A stretch of DNA of 37,645 nt from Melioribacter sp. (GTDB lineage Bacteria > Bacteroidota > Ignavibacteria > Ignavibacteriales > Melioribacteraceae): NCBI GenBank assembly GCA_003155655.1, contig PMDS01000093.1, positions 21,985 to 59,629 on the forward strand, given 5' to 3'. Shown here piece after piece: positions 14,120 through 26,061 of the stretch; within the stretch, counting starts at the first letter, position 1; each line of letters begins with the position of its first letter. The notes beneath the pieces were generated by a model that saw only the letters and a list, made by a program, of their open reading frames with translations, did no database searches and was not told the DNA's origin. The position numbers were made by a program, and so were the translations under genes.

Positions 14120-14189
14120 AGTAATAAAATCATTTTTGTAACAGCGTATAATAGATTTGATTTCTTTGCGATTATGCCTGTCCATCAAT

Positions 14190-14626
14190 GTGTATTACTT
14201 CAGCAATTCGGTAACGTTCAGGAGGAGATAAACACCAGGATTTTTTATCAATCTTTTATTTTTTTTCAGAATCTTTTTTCCCGGAAAATAACAAGGCTTC
14301 TAATACTGGTCCTCAATTTTTCGTCCATTTCAATCCAATTCAATCCATTTTTGACAATTTCAATCCCGTTTTTGACCATTTCAATCCCGTTTTTTCACCA
14401 TTAGGCATCTATGGAATAGTCAGTATGTCAAAGAACTTTTTTCAGGGTAAAATATTTTTACATCTAAAATTCCCTTAGCGAATATGCAAAACTTCTTTAA
14501 AAAATAATTTTGAACAGTTCAAAAAACTTGCCCTGATCCAGTCGAAGGGTCTGCTCAACTTTTTTTGTACACCGGATTATTAATAAAATATAAATCCTGT
14601 GGTACCTAAATACTGAAGTAATACAC
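14190..14626. repeat. inverted-repeat-flanked segment, possible small mobile element
   Basis: GTGTATTACTTCAG at 14190-14203 is matched perfectly in reverse orientation by CTGAAGTAATACAC at 14613-14626. Weaker similarity continues inwards (CAATTCGGTA against TATTTAGGTA) and outwards for some 10-15 bases, so the arms total roughly 35-40 bases. The 409 bases between hold no gene. This is the outline of a non-autonomous element or a degraded insertion sequence, but no target duplication was confirmed. Confidence 0.4.
14327..14399. repeat. short tandem repeat, about 21-bp unit
   Basis: Units run head to tail: a partial copy at 14327-14336, AATTCAATCCATTTTTGACA (14337-14356), a 21-base copy ATTTCAATCCCG+TTTTTGACC (14357-14377) and a 22-base copy ending TTTTTTCACC (14378-14399). 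The core TTCAATCC occurs in all. There are no spacers, so it is not a CRISPR array. Confidence 0.65.
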
Positions 14627-14669
14627 TATGGCAAACTGACATGCCGGCTTTGATTTTTTCAGCGTCAAA

Positions 14670-14723
14670 GACTTCTCAAAGTCCTAAAGGGATTCCTGCA
14701 GAAGCGACCCTTTGGAAGAAGTC
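14670..14723. repeat. long imperfect hairpin
   Basis: GACTTCT (14670-14676) pairs with AGAAGTC (14717-14723), and TCCTAAAGGG (14682-14691) pairs with CCCTTTGGA (14708-14716) with one bulge. The 16-base loop carries the palindrome CTGCAG. No U-tract follows, so it is more like a dispersed palindromic repeat than a terminator. Confidence 0.4.
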
Positions 14724-14968
14724 CTGAGGCTACAGAAACTTAATTAAGAATTATAATCAAAAAAATTGTAACTGAATAGTTCATCGGAAAGTTATATGGG
14801 AGTTGTATTTGAGGAGAAGCCAATAATTATAATAAATACCAAAAGGTTGTATAATATAAAAGGTACAACATACTTTAACTTAGTACTTTATTTTAGCTAA
14901 GAATTAAATAAAGATATTTGAATAGTTTAATTTTTATATTAAGTTGCAGTTTATAGACGGGGAAGGTT

Positions 14969-15142
14969 ATGAATTTAATTAAAGATGATTATAAGCAAAA
15001 ATTCAAATATATTAACTTTCTAATCAATTCTACAAATTGGGGATTAGAAGTAGATAAGCGGAACAAATTTGATGTTACCCTTTTCTCCAGCATATCTTGT
15101 ATACAAAAAAATAGATTTAATATTAAGTCGTTTTTATTTTAA
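14969..15142 (+). CDS. possible 57-residue orphan protein
   Basis: A short frame starts at ATG after the purine-rich GGGGAAGG (14959-14966, close spacing) and encodes MNLIKDDYKQKFKYINFLIN and so on to SFLF. It has no recognisable domain and could be the start of a decayed gene. It is 118 bases upstream of the accessory operon. Support is only the open frame and the possible ribosome site. Confidence 0.25.
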   Translation: MNLIKDDYKQKFKYINFLINSTNWGLEVDKRNKFDVTLFSSISCIQKNRFNIKSFLF

Positions 15143-15260
15143 CATAATGGTACCATAACGTAGTTCAGTAATTTTTAGGAAAGCAAGCAATAAATAAAAT
15201 AAATATTTAATCGTAATATTTCTAAAAACACTATTAGCTTATTAAATAAAGGAGAGAGTT

Positions 15261-15728
15261 ATGACTACAGATGGATTAAAGAAACTAGCTCAAGAAATTG
15301 TTAATCAAGCTCAACAATTAAACATTGCTTATACTACTGAGCATAATGCTCCAGTAAATTATGCTTGTGTATTTTCTCAAAGTGAGTACGAATATGAGGA
15401 GTTGATTCATACAGCAAGTCAATTCGGTTCTATTGTACAAGAAACAAAAACAGGACCCGTTTTTCAAATTCCACCCATCCAGACTGTAGCGGGTACATTA
15501 AAGTTACTGAAAATTCGTCATCCAGACCCGAAACGCACAGAACGTGGAGATGCAGATTTTACTGTATCTGATTATCCTTCTTTCAAGAAAAAATATCTCG
15601 GAACAACAGGCTTTGGTATAATAGAACGACCCGAGATGGAAATGATGGAACTTATTGACCCATCATATAATGTTCTTGCATATTACTCCTATCCAACACT
15701 TGCTAAAGTTTTAAAGATTGATCTGTAA
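15261..15728 (+). CDS. unrecognised 155-residue protein, first gene of accessory operon
   Basis: I do not recognise this family with confidence. The start is certain: ATG is preceded by AAAGGAGAG. The 155-residue soluble protein has a helical N-terminus, a central segment IRHPDPKRTERGDADFTVSD dense in charged residues that look conserved by character, then YPSFKKKYLGTTGFGIIERP and an acidic EMEMMELIDP. No signal peptide or membrane helix. It is followed 41 bases later by the WbqC-like gene in the same direction, so it is probably the lead gene of the operon. It might be an enzyme or a substrate-binding fold. Confidence 0.8.
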   Translation: MTTDGLKKLAQEIVNQAQQLNIAYTTEHNAPVNYACVFSQSEYEYEELIHTASQFGSIVQETKTGPVFQIPPIQTVAGTLKLLKIRHPDPKRTERGDADFTVSDYPSFKKKYLGTTGFGIIERPEMEMMELIDPSYNVLAYYSYPTLAKVLKIDL

Positions 15729-15769
15729 TGTTAATACTAATAAAATTTAACTGAATGAGGGAGATCAAT

Positions 15770-16558
15770 ATGCCGGATAACAGCCAATTAGATAAAACAA
15801 AAAAAATAAAACTAGCAATTCATCAACCAAATTTTTACCCTCGTCTCAAGGTATTGCAAAAATTAGCTTATGCTGATGTTTGGTGTATTCTTGATTCAGT
15901 TCAATATTGTACAAGAGAATGGCAAAACCGCACATGTATTATTCCTATGCATGGAAATAGAGGTCCTTTTTGGCTTTCAATTCCAGTAAATCGACCGAAT
16001 GGGAGAAGTACATTAATTAAAGATGTTTCCATAATTAATCCCATCTCCACAACATCACTTATTGAAAGAACATTGCATCATGCATTTCACAGAGCTCCTT
16101 ATTGGAGTTTTATTAAGCATATTATTCGAGAAAATAAAGATGTAATGGCTGCTAATAATCTTACTGATATGTGTGTAGAGACTACTAATACACTGTTAAA
16201 TTTAATTGACAGGAGACCTACTTTAATTTTTGCATCTACTCTTGATGTCAGAGGAAAAGCTTCGAACCTAATGGCTGCAATTTGCAAACATTTAAACGCA
16301 ACAACATACCTCGCTGATAGTGGTTCCAAAAATTATCTTGTTGCTAGTGATTTCACAGACATTGAAGTAGTGTGGCAAAATTGGGAAGAACCTATCGAAT
16401 CTTGGCCAGAAATAAAATCATGGAGAAACCTTTCCAGCGTAAATTATTTATGCAGAGAAGGACCCGAAAAGTTCGCTAATCATTTAATCCGTGATAATTT
16501 TACACCGGATCTAGTATGGTCAAAACCAAAGTTAAATACTTATTCAAAGTCGAGGTGA
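15770..16558 (+). CDS. WbqC-like family protein
   Basis: Encodes about 262 residues of the WbqC-like family, found in O-antigen and other glycan clusters. The family signature at the N-terminus is LAIHQPNFYPRLKVLQKLAYAD, followed by VQYCTREWQNRTCI and FWLSIPV. I chose the ATG at 15770 because GAGGGAG (15757-15763) is placed properly before it; the ATG at 15755 lies upstream of that site. Biochemistry is poorly defined for the family; a transfer reaction on a sugar or amino group is the usual guess. It overlaps the following HAD gene. Confidence 0.85.
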   Translation: MPDNSQLDKTKKIKLAIHQPNFYPRLKVLQKLAYADVWCILDSVQYCTREWQNRTCIIPMHGNRGPFWLSIPVNRPNGRSTLIKDVSIINPISTTSLIERTLHHAFHRAPYWSFIKHIIRENKDVMAANNLTDMCVETTNTLLNLIDRRPTLIFASTLDVRGKASNLMAAICKHLNATTYLADSGSKNYLVASDFTDIEVVWQNWEEPIESWPEIKSWRNLSSVNYLCREGPEKFANHLIRDNFTPDLVWSKPKLNTYSKSR

Positions 16559-17343
16559 TTATTAAAAAAATTAAATATAAAAAAGAAATATGCGCCATAC
16601 TCGACATTGATGGTGTACTCTGGATAGGAAATTCTCCAGGAGAAGGAGCGGTTAAATTTTTAGATTCGCTACATTCAGATGATATTCCTTTTTGCCTTTT
16701 ATCCAACACTTGCAATGTCTCAAAAGATAAAAGATTTAAAGAACTTAGAGATGCAGGATTCAAATTAGAATCAGAACAACTTATAACCGCTGTTGAGGTA
16801 ACTAAAGATTGGTTGTTAGAAACTGGTGTCAAAACAATAATGTATCTTGGGACCCAGGATGCTTTTAAGGATTTACAAACCAGTTTTGTAGTAAAGAATA
16901 CAAAACCAGTAGATGCGGTTGTTATTGGTGATTTTTTTACAAATTATGAACGTAGCTTATTAAATAATGCGACTAAAGCTGTAATAGCTGGTGCCACTTT
17001 GGTAGCAATGCACCGTAATCCACGTTGGTTTGATGGGATAGAATGGTATGTTGATAACGGATTTTGGGTTGCAGGTTTAGAGTACGTTACCGGTAAAAAA
17101 GCGATTGTATTAGGCAAACCATATCAGAATGCATATCAAGCGGCAATGAATCGACTTGGAAAATCAAAGAGTTGCAGTAAGGATGTTATTTTTATAAGTG
17201 ATGATATAATGTTTGATTTGAAGGGGGCAAAAGATTTTGATTTAAGAACAGTACACTTTGGTTCAACTGAGACATCACAACCGTGGGTTGATTATTATGC
17301 TAAAGATTATGATTCTCTATTATCGCTCATAAGAAATGGTTAG
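16516..17343 (+). CDS. HAD-IIA (NagD-like) sugar or nucleotide phosphatase
   Basis: Encodes up to 275 residues of the NagD/4-nitrophenylphosphatase branch of HAD hydrolases. Motif I is LDIDGVLW (Asp30, Asp32), motif II is LLSNTCN, a typical cap region spans about 90-190, then the motif III lysine region VLGKPYQNAY and motif IV ISDDIMFDLKGAKD. Substrates in this group are small phosphomonoesters. The start is uncertain: ATG at 16516 overlaps the WbqC-like gene by 43 bases, while a GTG at 16555 would give the common GTGA stop-start overlap and a protein 13 residues shorter. It overlaps the kinase gene by 8 bases. Confidence 0.88.
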   Translation: MVKTKVKYLFKVEVIIKKIKYKKEICAILDIDGVLWIGNSPGEGAVKFLDSLHSDDIPFCLLSNTCNVSKDKRFKELRDAGFKLESEQLITAVEVTKDWLLETGVKTIMYLGTQDAFKDLQTSFVVKNTKPVDAVVIGDFFTNYERSLLNNATKAVIAGATLVAMHRNPRWFDGIEWYVDNGFWVAGLEYVTGKKAIVLGKPYQNAYQAAMNRLGKSKSCSKDVIFISDDIMFDLKGAKDFDLRTVHFGSTETSQPWVDYYAKDYDSLLSLIRNG

Positions 17344-18703
17344 TGTAACTATTGGAATAGACATAGGAACATCTTATACAAAATGTTCAGCTCGGACGAA
17401 AAATGGAACAGTAATAGCTTCTTCTAGAAAACCATCGTCTAAAATTTTGGTAAGTCATCTTACCGATATATGGTCAGCAACAGAATGGTGGAAAGATGTT
17501 AAAGAAGTGTTTAATAGATTGTTTATAAGTGTTAAACAAGAAAGGATTTGCATTAAATCAATCTGTGTATCAGCTATTGCTCCAACTTTGACTCTGTTTG
17601 ACTCTTCAAATCCAGATAAAGCATATTCTATATTATATTCGACTCTACCAAAATTTGAAGATGGATCTTCATTCTCACAATGTGATCCATTGTTAACAGA
17701 ATACCGTCTAAATATTCTTAAGCAAATTGCTATTACGGAACATTTCATCAAACCTTGTGTAACTGATCTGGTAGGATATATAAATTGGAGATTTACGGAA
17801 GCATTGACAATTAATAATATTTCCCTTGTTGAAATGGGAATGTCTCAAGGAATGAAAGATTGTGAAAGACTAACAATTGAAAATAATATTAGCCCTCGAC
17901 TTGTTGCTGTGGGAGAGGTAATAGGTATAATTTCTAAAAAAGTCGAACAAGAGTTAAATATTTCAAAAGAAGTTACTATATGTGGTGGTTGTCCAGATAC
18001 AATGAGTTCTATTGTCGGGGCTGGTCTTTCTAATTCTCAAGATGTAATGTTATATCTTGGGACTTTTGGCTCTTTTATGTCAATCGAAAAAGATGTTCAA
18101 ACACTTTTAGATTCAACTAACCTTAAATACACTCCATTTAATTGGCAACTTTCAGTACCTGGACTTGGACCTCAAATTGAATTTCTAAGTCATCAATGGT
18201 TTGACTCTAAATATAATATTGATTGTTTAGCTACTCTTGATCAATTCGCAGCTAGTATGACTCAGGGAGCTGATGGAACATTATTTTTAATACCAAGATG
18301 GAAAAATGGGATGACTTCAGTTGGCAAATTTGAATTCATGCCAAATAGAAAAGGAGAAATTGGAAATATTGCTCGGTGCGCAAGAGCGGTGCTTGAAAGT
18401 ATTTCATACGCAATACTAGCAGTTGAGCCTTATTCTTGTGACAGAATTTATGTTAGTGGTGGTGGTTCCCGCAGTAAAACTTGGATAAATATTATATCAT
18501 CAATTCTTGAGAAAGATCTCCTTGTTCATAATATGGCATGGGAAGCTGTTGGTGCTGCTGATATTGCTGCAAGAACAATTTGGTCTAATTTTGAAACACG
18601 CCCTCTTTATTATGCTCGAACCGATATGCAACCTACTAATAAAATTGCAATTGATAATTTTAAACGTGTTATGGAGTACTATAATGAATTCAACTGGTTA
18701 TAA
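17336..18703 (+). CDS. FGGY-family carbohydrate kinase
   Basis: Encodes 455 residues, a little shorter than typical FGGY kinases (about 480-520). The N-terminal phosphate-binding motif is GIDIGTSYTK. SATEWWKDVKEVF matches the family W-W region. The catalytic base is probably Asp221 in GGCPDTMSS. C-terminal ATP-site motifs are YVSGGGSRSKTWINII and EAVGAADIAA. The substrate, a polyol or ketose, cannot be read from sequence. It is placed between a phosphatase and a membrane protein and overlaps both (8 and 20 bases), so translation is probably coupled. Sequence is divergent from xylulokinase and glycerol kinase. Confidence 0.88.
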   Translation: MVSVTIGIDIGTSYTKCSARTKNGTVIASSRKPSSKILVSHLTDIWSATEWWKDVKEVFNRLFISVKQERICIKSICVSAIAPTLTLFDSSNPDKAYSILYSTLPKFEDGSSFSQCDPLLTEYRLNILKQIAITEHFIKPCVTDLVGYINWRFTEALTINNISLVEMGMSQGMKDCERLTIENNISPRLVAVGEVIGIISKKVEQELNISKEVTICGGCPDTMSSIVGAGLSNSQDVMLYLGTFGSFMSIEKDVQTLLDSTNLKYTPFNWQLSVPGLGPQIEFLSHQWFDSKYNIDCLATLDQFAASMTQGADGTLFLIPRWKNGMTSVGKFEFMPNRKGEIGNIARCARAVLESISYAILAVEPYSCDRIYVSGGGSRSKTWINIISSILEKDLLVHNMAWEAVGAADIAARTIWSNFETRPLYYARTDMQPTNKIAIDNFKRVMEYYNEFNWL

Positions 18704-19481
18704 TATTCAACAAATAACTGAAACAAAAACTTTCTTAAGTCGATTTAATGCTTTTCGAGATCGATACAGAATTCAATTTTCCGCAACACTTGCAGTTATC
18801 GCTTCGATTACATTTGTCGTTGCTACAATAATCCCAATTGTTCAAAAATATGTATCAGATAGTGGTCTTCTTCAATATTTAACGGTTATTATTGTTTTGG
18901 ATTTAGCGGTCACGATATATCGTCAACAACGTCCGGAAAATACTACTCTGATCAAGAATCAAGATGATTCAATGCCGAAATTAATTGAAGTGGTAGAACA
19001 TTGTAAAACTGATGGTGTGGACTTACTAGAATATGCTGGTGCAACGGCTTTACCCTTAATAAGAGCAATTCAAAGAAATGGTGTCCCGTTTCGATTGCTA
19101 GTAAAACATCCAAATACAGTTTCTGGAATTCAAAAACAAAGAATGATTACGACACTAGATACATTATACAATTCCATTTTTGATAATTGTGAAGGTACAT
19201 TTGAAATTCGCTGTTACAAATTACCATATACACTCAGAGGGCGACGTCTTGGCAGAGAACTACTTGAATTGGGCTGGTTAACTCCGGATATTAAACGTGT
19301 AACAGCATTCGGACATGCGAATCCATCTGTACTAGCGGATTTATCTATAAAGAGTAATGATTATCTTTACCATTTTTTCAACAAGACATTTCTTGATTAT
19401 TGGGAGGATAAAAACACGGAAGATGGTAATGTTGTATTAACAAAATTATTAAGTGGGACTAAAAAGGTCAGGCATAAATAA
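18684..19481 (+). CDS. two-helix membrane protein with PLD-like soluble domain (tentative)
   Basis: Encodes 265 residues from the ATG at 18684, which has GGAG at 18673-18676. The frame is open upstream to 18507, but that part is inside the kinase gene. Two hydrophobic helices (about 33-55 and 61-79) anchor a cytoplasmic C-terminal domain of about 180 residues. Its start, GVDLLEYAGATALPLIRAIQ then NGVPFRLLVKHP, has the strand-helix-strand pattern of phospholipase D-like folds. A complete HxKxxxxD motif is not present; the nearest candidate is FGHANPSVLAD. The call is a fold guess. It is the last gene of the accessory operon. Confidence 0.75.
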   Translation: MNSTGYNIQQITETKTFLSRFNAFRDRYRIQFSATLAVIASITFVVATIIPIVQKYVSDSGLLQYLTVIIVLDLAVTIYRQQRPENTTLIKNQDDSMPKLIEVVEHCKTDGVDLLEYAGATALPLIRAIQRNGVPFRLLVKHPNTVSGIQKQRMITTLDTLYNSIFDNCEGTFEIRCYKLPYTLRGRRLGRELLELGWLTPDIKRVTAFGHANPSVLADLSIKSNDYLYHFFNKTFLDYWEDKNTEDGNVVLTKLLSGTKKVRHK

Positions 19482-19649
19482 ATATTCCATAATTTTATTC
19501 TTCTTTGCAAATTCTTTTGTCATTAAGCTAAGCGATAATGATAGAATTAATTGATTTACTGTTTCCTAACTGACAAGTACTATGAGTCTGTAGGAGTACT
19601 CTGATTTTTAAGAATTTTCATTCATTGTTGTTTTGTTTTTTTTAAACCA

Positions 19650-19688
19650 GAGTCTGTTTTTTCAAAAAATTGGTTTTCGGACAGACTC
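19650..19688. repeat. hairpin at right edge of accessory operon
   Basis: GAGTCTGT (19650-19657) and ACAGACTC (19681-19688) form an 8-bp stem. A third copy, GAGTCTGT, lies at 19584-19591, between two AGTACT palindromes (19576-19581, 19594-19599). It lies between convergent genes, but no U-tract directly follows on either strand, so the terminator role is uncertain. Confidence 0.35.
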
Positions 19689-19722
19689 CCATTCGTTGCC
19701 GACCGTGGAAAATGGTTAGGTA

Positions 19723-25266: not shown

Positions 25267-26061
25267 TTAATTATTAACTAATTTAATATCAGAAGTCATA
25301 TTAGATATTATATTATTTTTAAGTTTTAATTCAAATAATTTGTCTTTAGAAGTTTCCAAATAAAATAATTTTTTAAAGGATGATTCATATTCATGTTGTT
25401 GAGTTTCAACCGATGGAGAATAATAACTTCCACCACCAATTCCTTTTTCGTAGACAACTAACCAATTTTCATCTGTTTTAAGCTTAGATTTTTTTATTTT
25501 CTTATCTTTTTCATAGATCAATTGTTGTAATTCAAAAATAAAATCATTGTAGTCCCGCCTATTTTTTGAAACAAAAAAATAATGGGAAAGAATGGAATCA
25601 TATCGTAAAATACTAATATAACTTATTTCAAATGGGAAATAATTGTTATTATCGAAATCATTGTAAAATGTAAAATTAAAATTTCTTGCTGGTAAATTTT
25701 CAATTATAAAATCATATAATCTATTAATTAGCCTAGTTTTTACTTTATTCCCTAATCTTTCAGTTACTCCAGGTATAATTATAATATGTAAAGGATCAAT
25801 TCCATTTTTAATCAGTTTCATTTCAATATTCTCAGCTATATTATCCCAAATTGCTTCTCTTTCAGTAAAACTAAATTTTCTTAGCTTTTTTTTGTCTATA
25901 ATTTTTGTCAGTTCAATACCTATTTTCTTTATTTTACTTATCAATATAAAATCTGGATTTTCATGATCTTCTCTTATGCAATCAGGATATTCATTATATA
26001 GTTTTTGGAAAATTGATAAATAAAATTTCTCCTCTTCTTTTTTATTTTGAAAATCCTTCAT
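25267..26061 (-). CDS. inserted nuclease-like protein, PD-(D/E)xK-like N-terminus
   Basis: Encodes 264 residues that are not a Bat component. Near the N-terminus, ENPDFIL (Pro36-Asp37) followed by KIKKIGIELTKI (Glu50) fits the PD...(D/E)xK endonuclease core, with Thr52 where lysine is usual. A middle part (about 100-130) is helical and basic; Lys, Asn and Ile are unusually frequent, and the DNA is visibly more AT-rich than its neighbours. It sits between batA and batB with 6- and 8-base gaps, so it should be transcribed with them. I infer acquisition by insertion; activity is unproven. Confidence 0.8.
   Translation of the reverse strand: MKDFQNKKEEEKFYLSIFQKLYNEYPDCIREDHENPDFILISKIKKIGIELTKIIDKKKLRKFSFTEREAIWDNIAENIEMKLIKNGIDPLHIIIIPGVTERLGNKVKTRLINRLYDFIIENLPARNFNFTFYNDFDNNNYFPFEISYISILRYDSILSHYFFVSKNRRDYNDFIFELQQLIYEKDKKIKKSKLKTDENWLVVYEKGIGGGSYYSPSVETQQHEYESSFKKLFYLETSKDKLFELKLKNNIISNMTSDIKLVNN

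Follow-up and report, generated by a model that had tools for sequence, protein, structure and literature searches.

A predicted accessory operon joining a WbqC-type protein, a HAD-IIA phosphatase and a divergent FGGY kinase in a Melioribacter genome

What could bring together, in a single operon, a WbqC-type protein, a phosphatase, a sugar-type kinase and two proteins of no recognised family? The question is raised by a locus in a 37,645-nucleotide stretch of DNA from Melioribacter sp. (assembly GCA_003155655.1, contig PMDS01000093.1, positions 21,985 to 59,629 of the forward strand), here called the window. A sequence-only reading had described a compact accessory operon of five genes, and all five open reading frames were recovered on the plus strand at 15261-19481, in the place and direction proposed. 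The lead gene (15261..15728), with a Shine-Dalgarno-like GGAG upstream, encodes the 155-residue protein P0001. It is followed by the genes of the WbqC-type P0002 (15770..16558, 262 residues), the HAD-IIA phosphatase P0003 (16555..17343), the FGGY kinase P0004 (17336..18703, 455 residues) and the membrane protein P0005 (18684..19481, 265 residues). Pfam and NCBIfam profile scores agreed with the three family assignments, for the kinase in its N-terminal FGGY domain, and the first and last proteins, described as having no known job, drew no Pfam match at E values as high as 10.

The overlap claimed for the last four genes was also recovered by reading the sequence. The WbqC gene most likely starts at 15770, behind a GAGGGAG stretch, which leaves a gap of 41 nt after the lead gene; the alternative start at 15755 would leave 26 nt. 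It overlaps the HAD gene by 43 nt if the latter begins with the ATG at 16516, and by 4 nt (GTGA) if it begins with the GTG at 16555. The GTG seems the likelier start, with its four-base overlap and a short leader ahead of the DIDGV motif. The HAD and FGGY genes overlap by 8 nt, and the FGGY gene and the last gene by 20 nt, with a GGAG 7 nt upstream of the last ATG. With a codon score trained on 20 further genes of the window, taken as host genes, all five genes came out above zero in the proposed frame (from 0.096 up to 0.260; 0.223 for the lead gene) and below zero in the other five frames, so that all five frames look coding. The overlapping, co-directional unit is in our judgement, from its layout, a genuine operon. 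Scans for promoters (23 sites against 26.7 expected) and terminators (4 against 1.9) were uninformative, and the window held no Rfam match and no tRNA.

To place the operon among its relatives, the locus was fetched from 7 of 11 congener genomes. The two flanking genes, which we read from sequence as a putative M48 peptidase and a putative VWA lipoprotein, have matches in all seven, in an unchanged order and separated by 68-160 bp; in the Melioribacter window the distance is 5640 bp. None of the five genes has a match in the 16-18 kb fetched from each of these congeners (E 1e-6). The intergenic sequence common to the congeners can be traced to about 14141. Since the flanks adjoin in the congeners and the shared intergenic sequence ends there, we place an insertion of about 5.6 kb at approximately 14142..19722, its right edge being especially approximate. 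The set does interrupt a conserved run of minus-strand genes, as had been proposed, and the overlapping genes lie inside an insertion relative to the congeners, in keeping with the description of the operon as accessory. The insertion extends beyond the operon as first delimited. A contaminating contig was considered as its source and ruled out, the same contig carrying host-syntenic flanks and a repeat element found genome-wide.

That element accounts for the repeats previously said to precede the operon. They belong to a dispersed element copy of about 440 bp on the plus strand (14190..14633), with terminal inverted repeats at 14190-14213 and 14603-14626. The element gave 62 BLAST matches in its own genome, counting itself and fragments of copies, and no match in the 11 congeners (E 1e-6). 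When up to 3 mismatches were allowed, 28 left and 20 right ends were found in the genome, and none with the reversed control patterns. Ends were compared in eight copies that have both (that of the window and 7 of the 20 fetched; 430-582 bp): GGC stands three bases past the right end in 7 of the 8, and the 3-bp flanks are identical in 3 of the 8. The repeat resembles a non-autonomous transposable element; it sits within the insertion but is probably unrelated to the operon.

The composition of the five genes points the same way as their absence from the congeners. Their GC3 lies between 0.19 and 0.24, whereas the 20 host genes average 0.282 (sd 0.033), and the codon scores of the WbqC gene (0.113) and the P0005 gene (0.096) fall below that of the lowest host gene (0.194). 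The low GC3 and the two low codon scores fit acquisition from elsewhere, and the five-gene insertion looks like a horizontally acquired metabolic accessory.

The two enzymes suggest what kind of metabolism this might be. P0003 scored 116.5 bits against TIGR01460 (cut-off 100.15), which places it in the HAD-IIA family, and it aligns to NagD and HDHD2 across residues 27-246 of its long form. Its DIDGV, LLSNT, GKP and SDD regions align with those of the two proteins, and their DxD, Ser/Thr, Lys and acidic motifs presumably have catalytic roles. P0003 had matches in 40 plasmid records at E 1e-10 (28-32% identity among the 20 matches listed) and none in viral contigs; the neighbourhood of one plasmid match held neither a WbqC nor an FGGY gene. 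P0004 passed the cut-off for FGGY_N (48.1 bits against 28.8; E 1.5e-12) and stayed under that for FGGY_C (23.7 bits against 27). Its GIDIGTS, GGCPDTMSSIVGAG and VSGGGSRS stretches align to XylB-like kinases, GIDIGTS being the N-terminal loop and GGGSRS C-terminal, and we take these aligned stretches to be catalytic. Both proteins have the motif regions of their families. P0004 was found in its own genome only, both among 345 genomes of the phylum (E 1e-20) and among 391 of the class (E 1e-12), and had no match in viral contigs. Among the operon proteins it alone has a clear PHROGs match (E 2e-12), with a family whose function is unknown.

Our preferred reading, which we hold tentatively, is that of a horizontally acquired single operon, present in one genome so far, that makes or modifies a small molecule. 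In such a scheme the substrate of the FGGY kinase would be a sugar, ketose or polyol. Its phosphorylated form could then be acted on by the WbqC protein, by itself or together with the lead protein, and the HAD enzyme would take off the phosphate, either as the final reaction or from by-products. The last protein might anchor the step, or what it yields, to the membrane. Several observations favour this reading: the overlap of the last four genes, the insertion and its absence from the congeners, the composition of the genes, the family matches and motif regions of the enzymes, and WbqC relatives that occur behind a peptide synthetase gene and in XRE-YdcF-WbqC operons. The insertion shows no gene for a transporter, isomerase, aldolase or dehydrogenase, which makes sugar catabolism an unlikely role for the operon. 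The small-molecule reading itself has points against it: the divergence of the kinase (23-26% identity among the 25 of 37 plasmid FGGY matches listed) points to no substrate, and neither the lead nor the last protein has a match. The view of the earlier reading that no named pathway has this combination held up, none having been found; in the portions of the literature on WbqC or FGGY kinases that were available, we did not find the five-gene set described.

In the search for the set elsewhere, the WbqC protein was the most productive query. A scan of genome contigs with the WbqC protein gave 218 relatives, of which the best 80 were kept; these loci favour the clade of P0002, since the patterns used to select them came from the proteins of the window and of Virgibacillus. 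None of the 80 had the lead, HAD, FGGY or last gene (E 1e-3) in flanks of up to 10 kb per side, several contigs ending sooner. In viral contigs a single-sequence WbqC search gave no match, and a two-row alignment gave nine loci, none with the other four genes. The same was true of the 11 WbqC loci found in the phylum. The genome sets of the lead, kinase, last-protein and phylum WbqC searches overlap, and the phylum and class sets are samples of larger groups. Within the searched genomes, plasmids and viral contigs, then, the five genes do not recur together, which is the outcome that the earlier reading had named as refuting its proposal. This is what would be seen if genes acquired separately, and serving no common pathway, had come under one transcript in a single strain, and the 41 nt gap that sets the lead gene apart would suit such a chance assembly. 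On the other side, the last four genes overlap by 4-43, 8 and 20 nt, as genes that stay together in an operon typically do, and GC3 is low in all five. We regard chance assembly as somewhat unlikely, and as the alternative to be taken most seriously. Because no second genome with the set was found, it is gene overlap that carries the functional link, and a single pathway for the five genes of this one genome is no more than plausible.

P0001 had one NCBIfam match, at chance level (glyQ, E 0.066; 12.5 bits, where the cut-off is 361), and its best match among solved chains was likewise chance-level (E 0.31). It was found in its own genome only among 146 relatives and among 395 phylum genomes, and was not found in plasmids (E 1e-2) or phages (E 0.1), nor in viral or genome contigs, where exact 8-residue stretches were searched, a method that misses distant relatives. 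P0005 has, as had been described, two hydrophobic helices, which we read near residues 30-80, followed by a C-terminal domain. It matched no NCBIfam family, its best solved chain was at chance level (E 0.94), and it was absent from the plasmids, phages and viral contigs searched. Two weak matches besides itself in 296 genomes were rejected, since no protein of this kind is present among the frames listed at those places. The structure predictions proposed as a check gave no usable models from single sequences (mean pLDDT 38.5 for P0001 and 37.8 for P0005).

The helix pair of P0005 raises the possibility of a defence-like conflict module, in which the enzymes would make or consume a small signal that controls the last protein as a SLATT-like membrane effector. 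The accessory, one-genome distribution would suit such a module, and the best library match of P0005 was RTasSLATT, over residues 15-79 (E 0.0081). The N-terminal part alone had DUF4231 as its best Pfam match (E 0.11), a family that we take to be SLATT-related. Scanned against the same library as the whole protein, this part preferred another model, CARF_TM (E 0.041). The RTasSLATT and DUF4231 matches are, however, below significance. In a control scan of seven other proteins of the window with membrane segments, three matched unrelated models (E 0.0043, 0.013 and 3e-07, the last taken to be a shared permease domain) and four matched none. P0005 is thus not placed among SLATT effectors, its E 0.0081 being no better than the controls, and the SLATT reading stays tentative because control proteins give similarly weak matches. 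A suspected resemblance of the C-terminal part to phospholipase-D-like regulatory domains was not borne out by Pfam and was set aside. In PADLOC, four operon proteins match nothing at E 1 and the fifth, P0005, matches weakly, so that the set does not fall into a known anti-phage system; in addition, no nucleotide cyclase, SLOG or nuclease gene is visible in the insertion. On balance we consider a defence-like module unlikely.

A role in glycans had been suggested from the WbqC-like protein, and this is the part of the earlier interpretation that came out weakened. P0002 belongs to the WbqC family (PF08889, 110.7 bits against a gathering cut-off of 21.3, E 1.2e-31, profile positions 1-215 of 218); its best match among solved chains was at chance level (E 2.1). 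The text available from one source describes the WbqC domain as functionally uncharacterised (PMC5532660). Elsewhere in the accessible literature the family is tied to O-antigen by location or by guess, or merely listed in an expression table, and those portions report no enzymatic activity. Two trees were built. The first has 26 rows, namely 21 of 89 loci (the 80 from genome contigs and the nine viral ones), hand-picked for spread, and five other proteins. The second has 36 rows, being the first without the long row L143 and with eleven phylum proteins added. In both, P0002 groups with actinomycete and Virgibacillus WbqC proteins (support 100/98). Where exactly P0002 falls within its group is uncertain, and both trees show the Virgibacillus row on a long branch. 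Across the split lie a second WbqC of the same genome (G000:C96), the Mariluticola and Brocadiaceae copies and all 11 proteins of the phylum search. A glycan-type cluster context was seen for three rows there, the second copy, Mariluticola and Brocadiaceae; the second copy is flanked by glycosyltransferase-like and sugar-nucleotide genes (putative names, by reading). P0002 is thus not in the O-antigen-type clade, the glycan context of the other side coming from those three rows.

The contexts of its own relatives differ. A YdcF (DUF218) gene adjoins WbqC in 77 of the best 80 of 218 loci, and an XRE-type regulator is also present in 74. The Virgibacillus WbqC gene sits behind a nonribosomal peptide synthetase (NRPS) gene, with genes for a PIG-L deacetylase and an MraY-family protein nearby. 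One Streptomyces plasmid match, whose clade was not placed, overlaps a UDP-galactopyranose mutase annotation, so that a glycan link is possible for some relatives; the PIG-L and MraY-family genes also count on that side. The separation from the glycan-cluster proteins and the XRE/YdcF and NRPS contexts count on the other, and as these sequences stand the glycan reading appears weakened.

It could still be imagined that the operon decorates a surface glycan, the kinase and phosphatase shaping a sugar phosphate and the WbqC protein attaching it to lipopolysaccharide or capsule. WbqC proteins are often in O-antigen loci, according to the part of the literature available, and putative KDO-synthesis-like genes (names by reading) lie about 3-9 kb away in the window; the mutase, PIG-L and MraY-family neighbours of relatives would also suit this role. 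However, no glycosyltransferase or nucleotidyltransferase gene is visible in the insertion, which disfavours a complete glycan pathway, P0002 is outside the clade of the glycan-cluster rows, and the O-antigen-type locus of the genome has its own WbqC. The kdsB-like gene of the window holds its place in all seven congeners and is hence outside the insertion. These points make surface-glycan decoration quite improbable. Also improbable, we think, is a new kind of signal-effector module in which the amount of a phosphorylated small molecule, governed by the kinase, the phosphatase and the WbqC protein, would control a two-helix membrane effector, the lead protein serving as sensor or adaptor.

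Our results indicate a second WbqC clade, in small operons with a regulator and YdcF and in a peptide-synthesis cluster, and the five-gene set would offer a compact route to the role of that clade. If the last protein is an effector, the set would be a new type of module; otherwise it is one more orphan accessory operon.

The closest known systems each share a feature with the set and differ from it in others. FGGY sugar kinases such as XylB and 3ifr have motif regions that align with those of P0004, but P0004 is highly divergent and has no visible isomerase or transporter partner. SLATT-type two-helix effectors (DRT-associated, DUF4231) have a similar arrangement of a neighbouring N-terminal helix pair and a soluble domain, whereas the P0005 match is at control level and no cyclase, SLOG or reverse transcriptase partner was seen. 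O-antigen and capsule loci with WbqC, such as that of the second copy, share the Pfam family of P0002 but carry the other WbqC clade amid glycosyltransferase-like and sugar-nucleotide genes. The XRE-YdcF(DUF218)-WbqC operons of actinomycetes have YdcF and a regulator in place of the FGGY, HAD-IIA, lead and last genes (80 loci, E 1e-3), and they resemble the Melioribacter set in their compact operon form and in the clade of their WbqC protein.

A dispersed element with terminal inverted repeats lies at 14190-14633 of the window, and copies of about 430-580 bp are found on many contigs of the same genome. BLAST returned 62 matches to the element in this genome, pieces of copies being counted, and none in 11 other genomes of the genus. 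Among the eight copies for which both ends were found, GGC stands three bases past the right end in seven, and the 3-bp flanks are identical in three. No autonomous partner of the element was identified.

The neighbourhood of the VWA lipoprotein gene seems to have received insertions more than once, since in one congener (L026:10192-11683) a further stretch of about 1.5 kb parts this gene from gatC. Elsewhere in the window, a 264-residue frame on the minus strand (25267-26061) is flanked by two VWA genes, which we read as Bat-like.

As to WbqC relatives elsewhere, a Virgibacillus plasmid (L003:3767-13664) carries a cluster with NRPS, WbqC, PIG-L deacetylase, ATP-grasp and MFS genes. In actinomycetes, a conserved operon comprises an XRE-type regulator, YdcF (DUF218) and WbqC (L033-L112, as well as loci L002 and L005); among L033-L112, the best 80 of 218 loci, YdcF adjoins WbqC in 77 and all three genes are present in 74.
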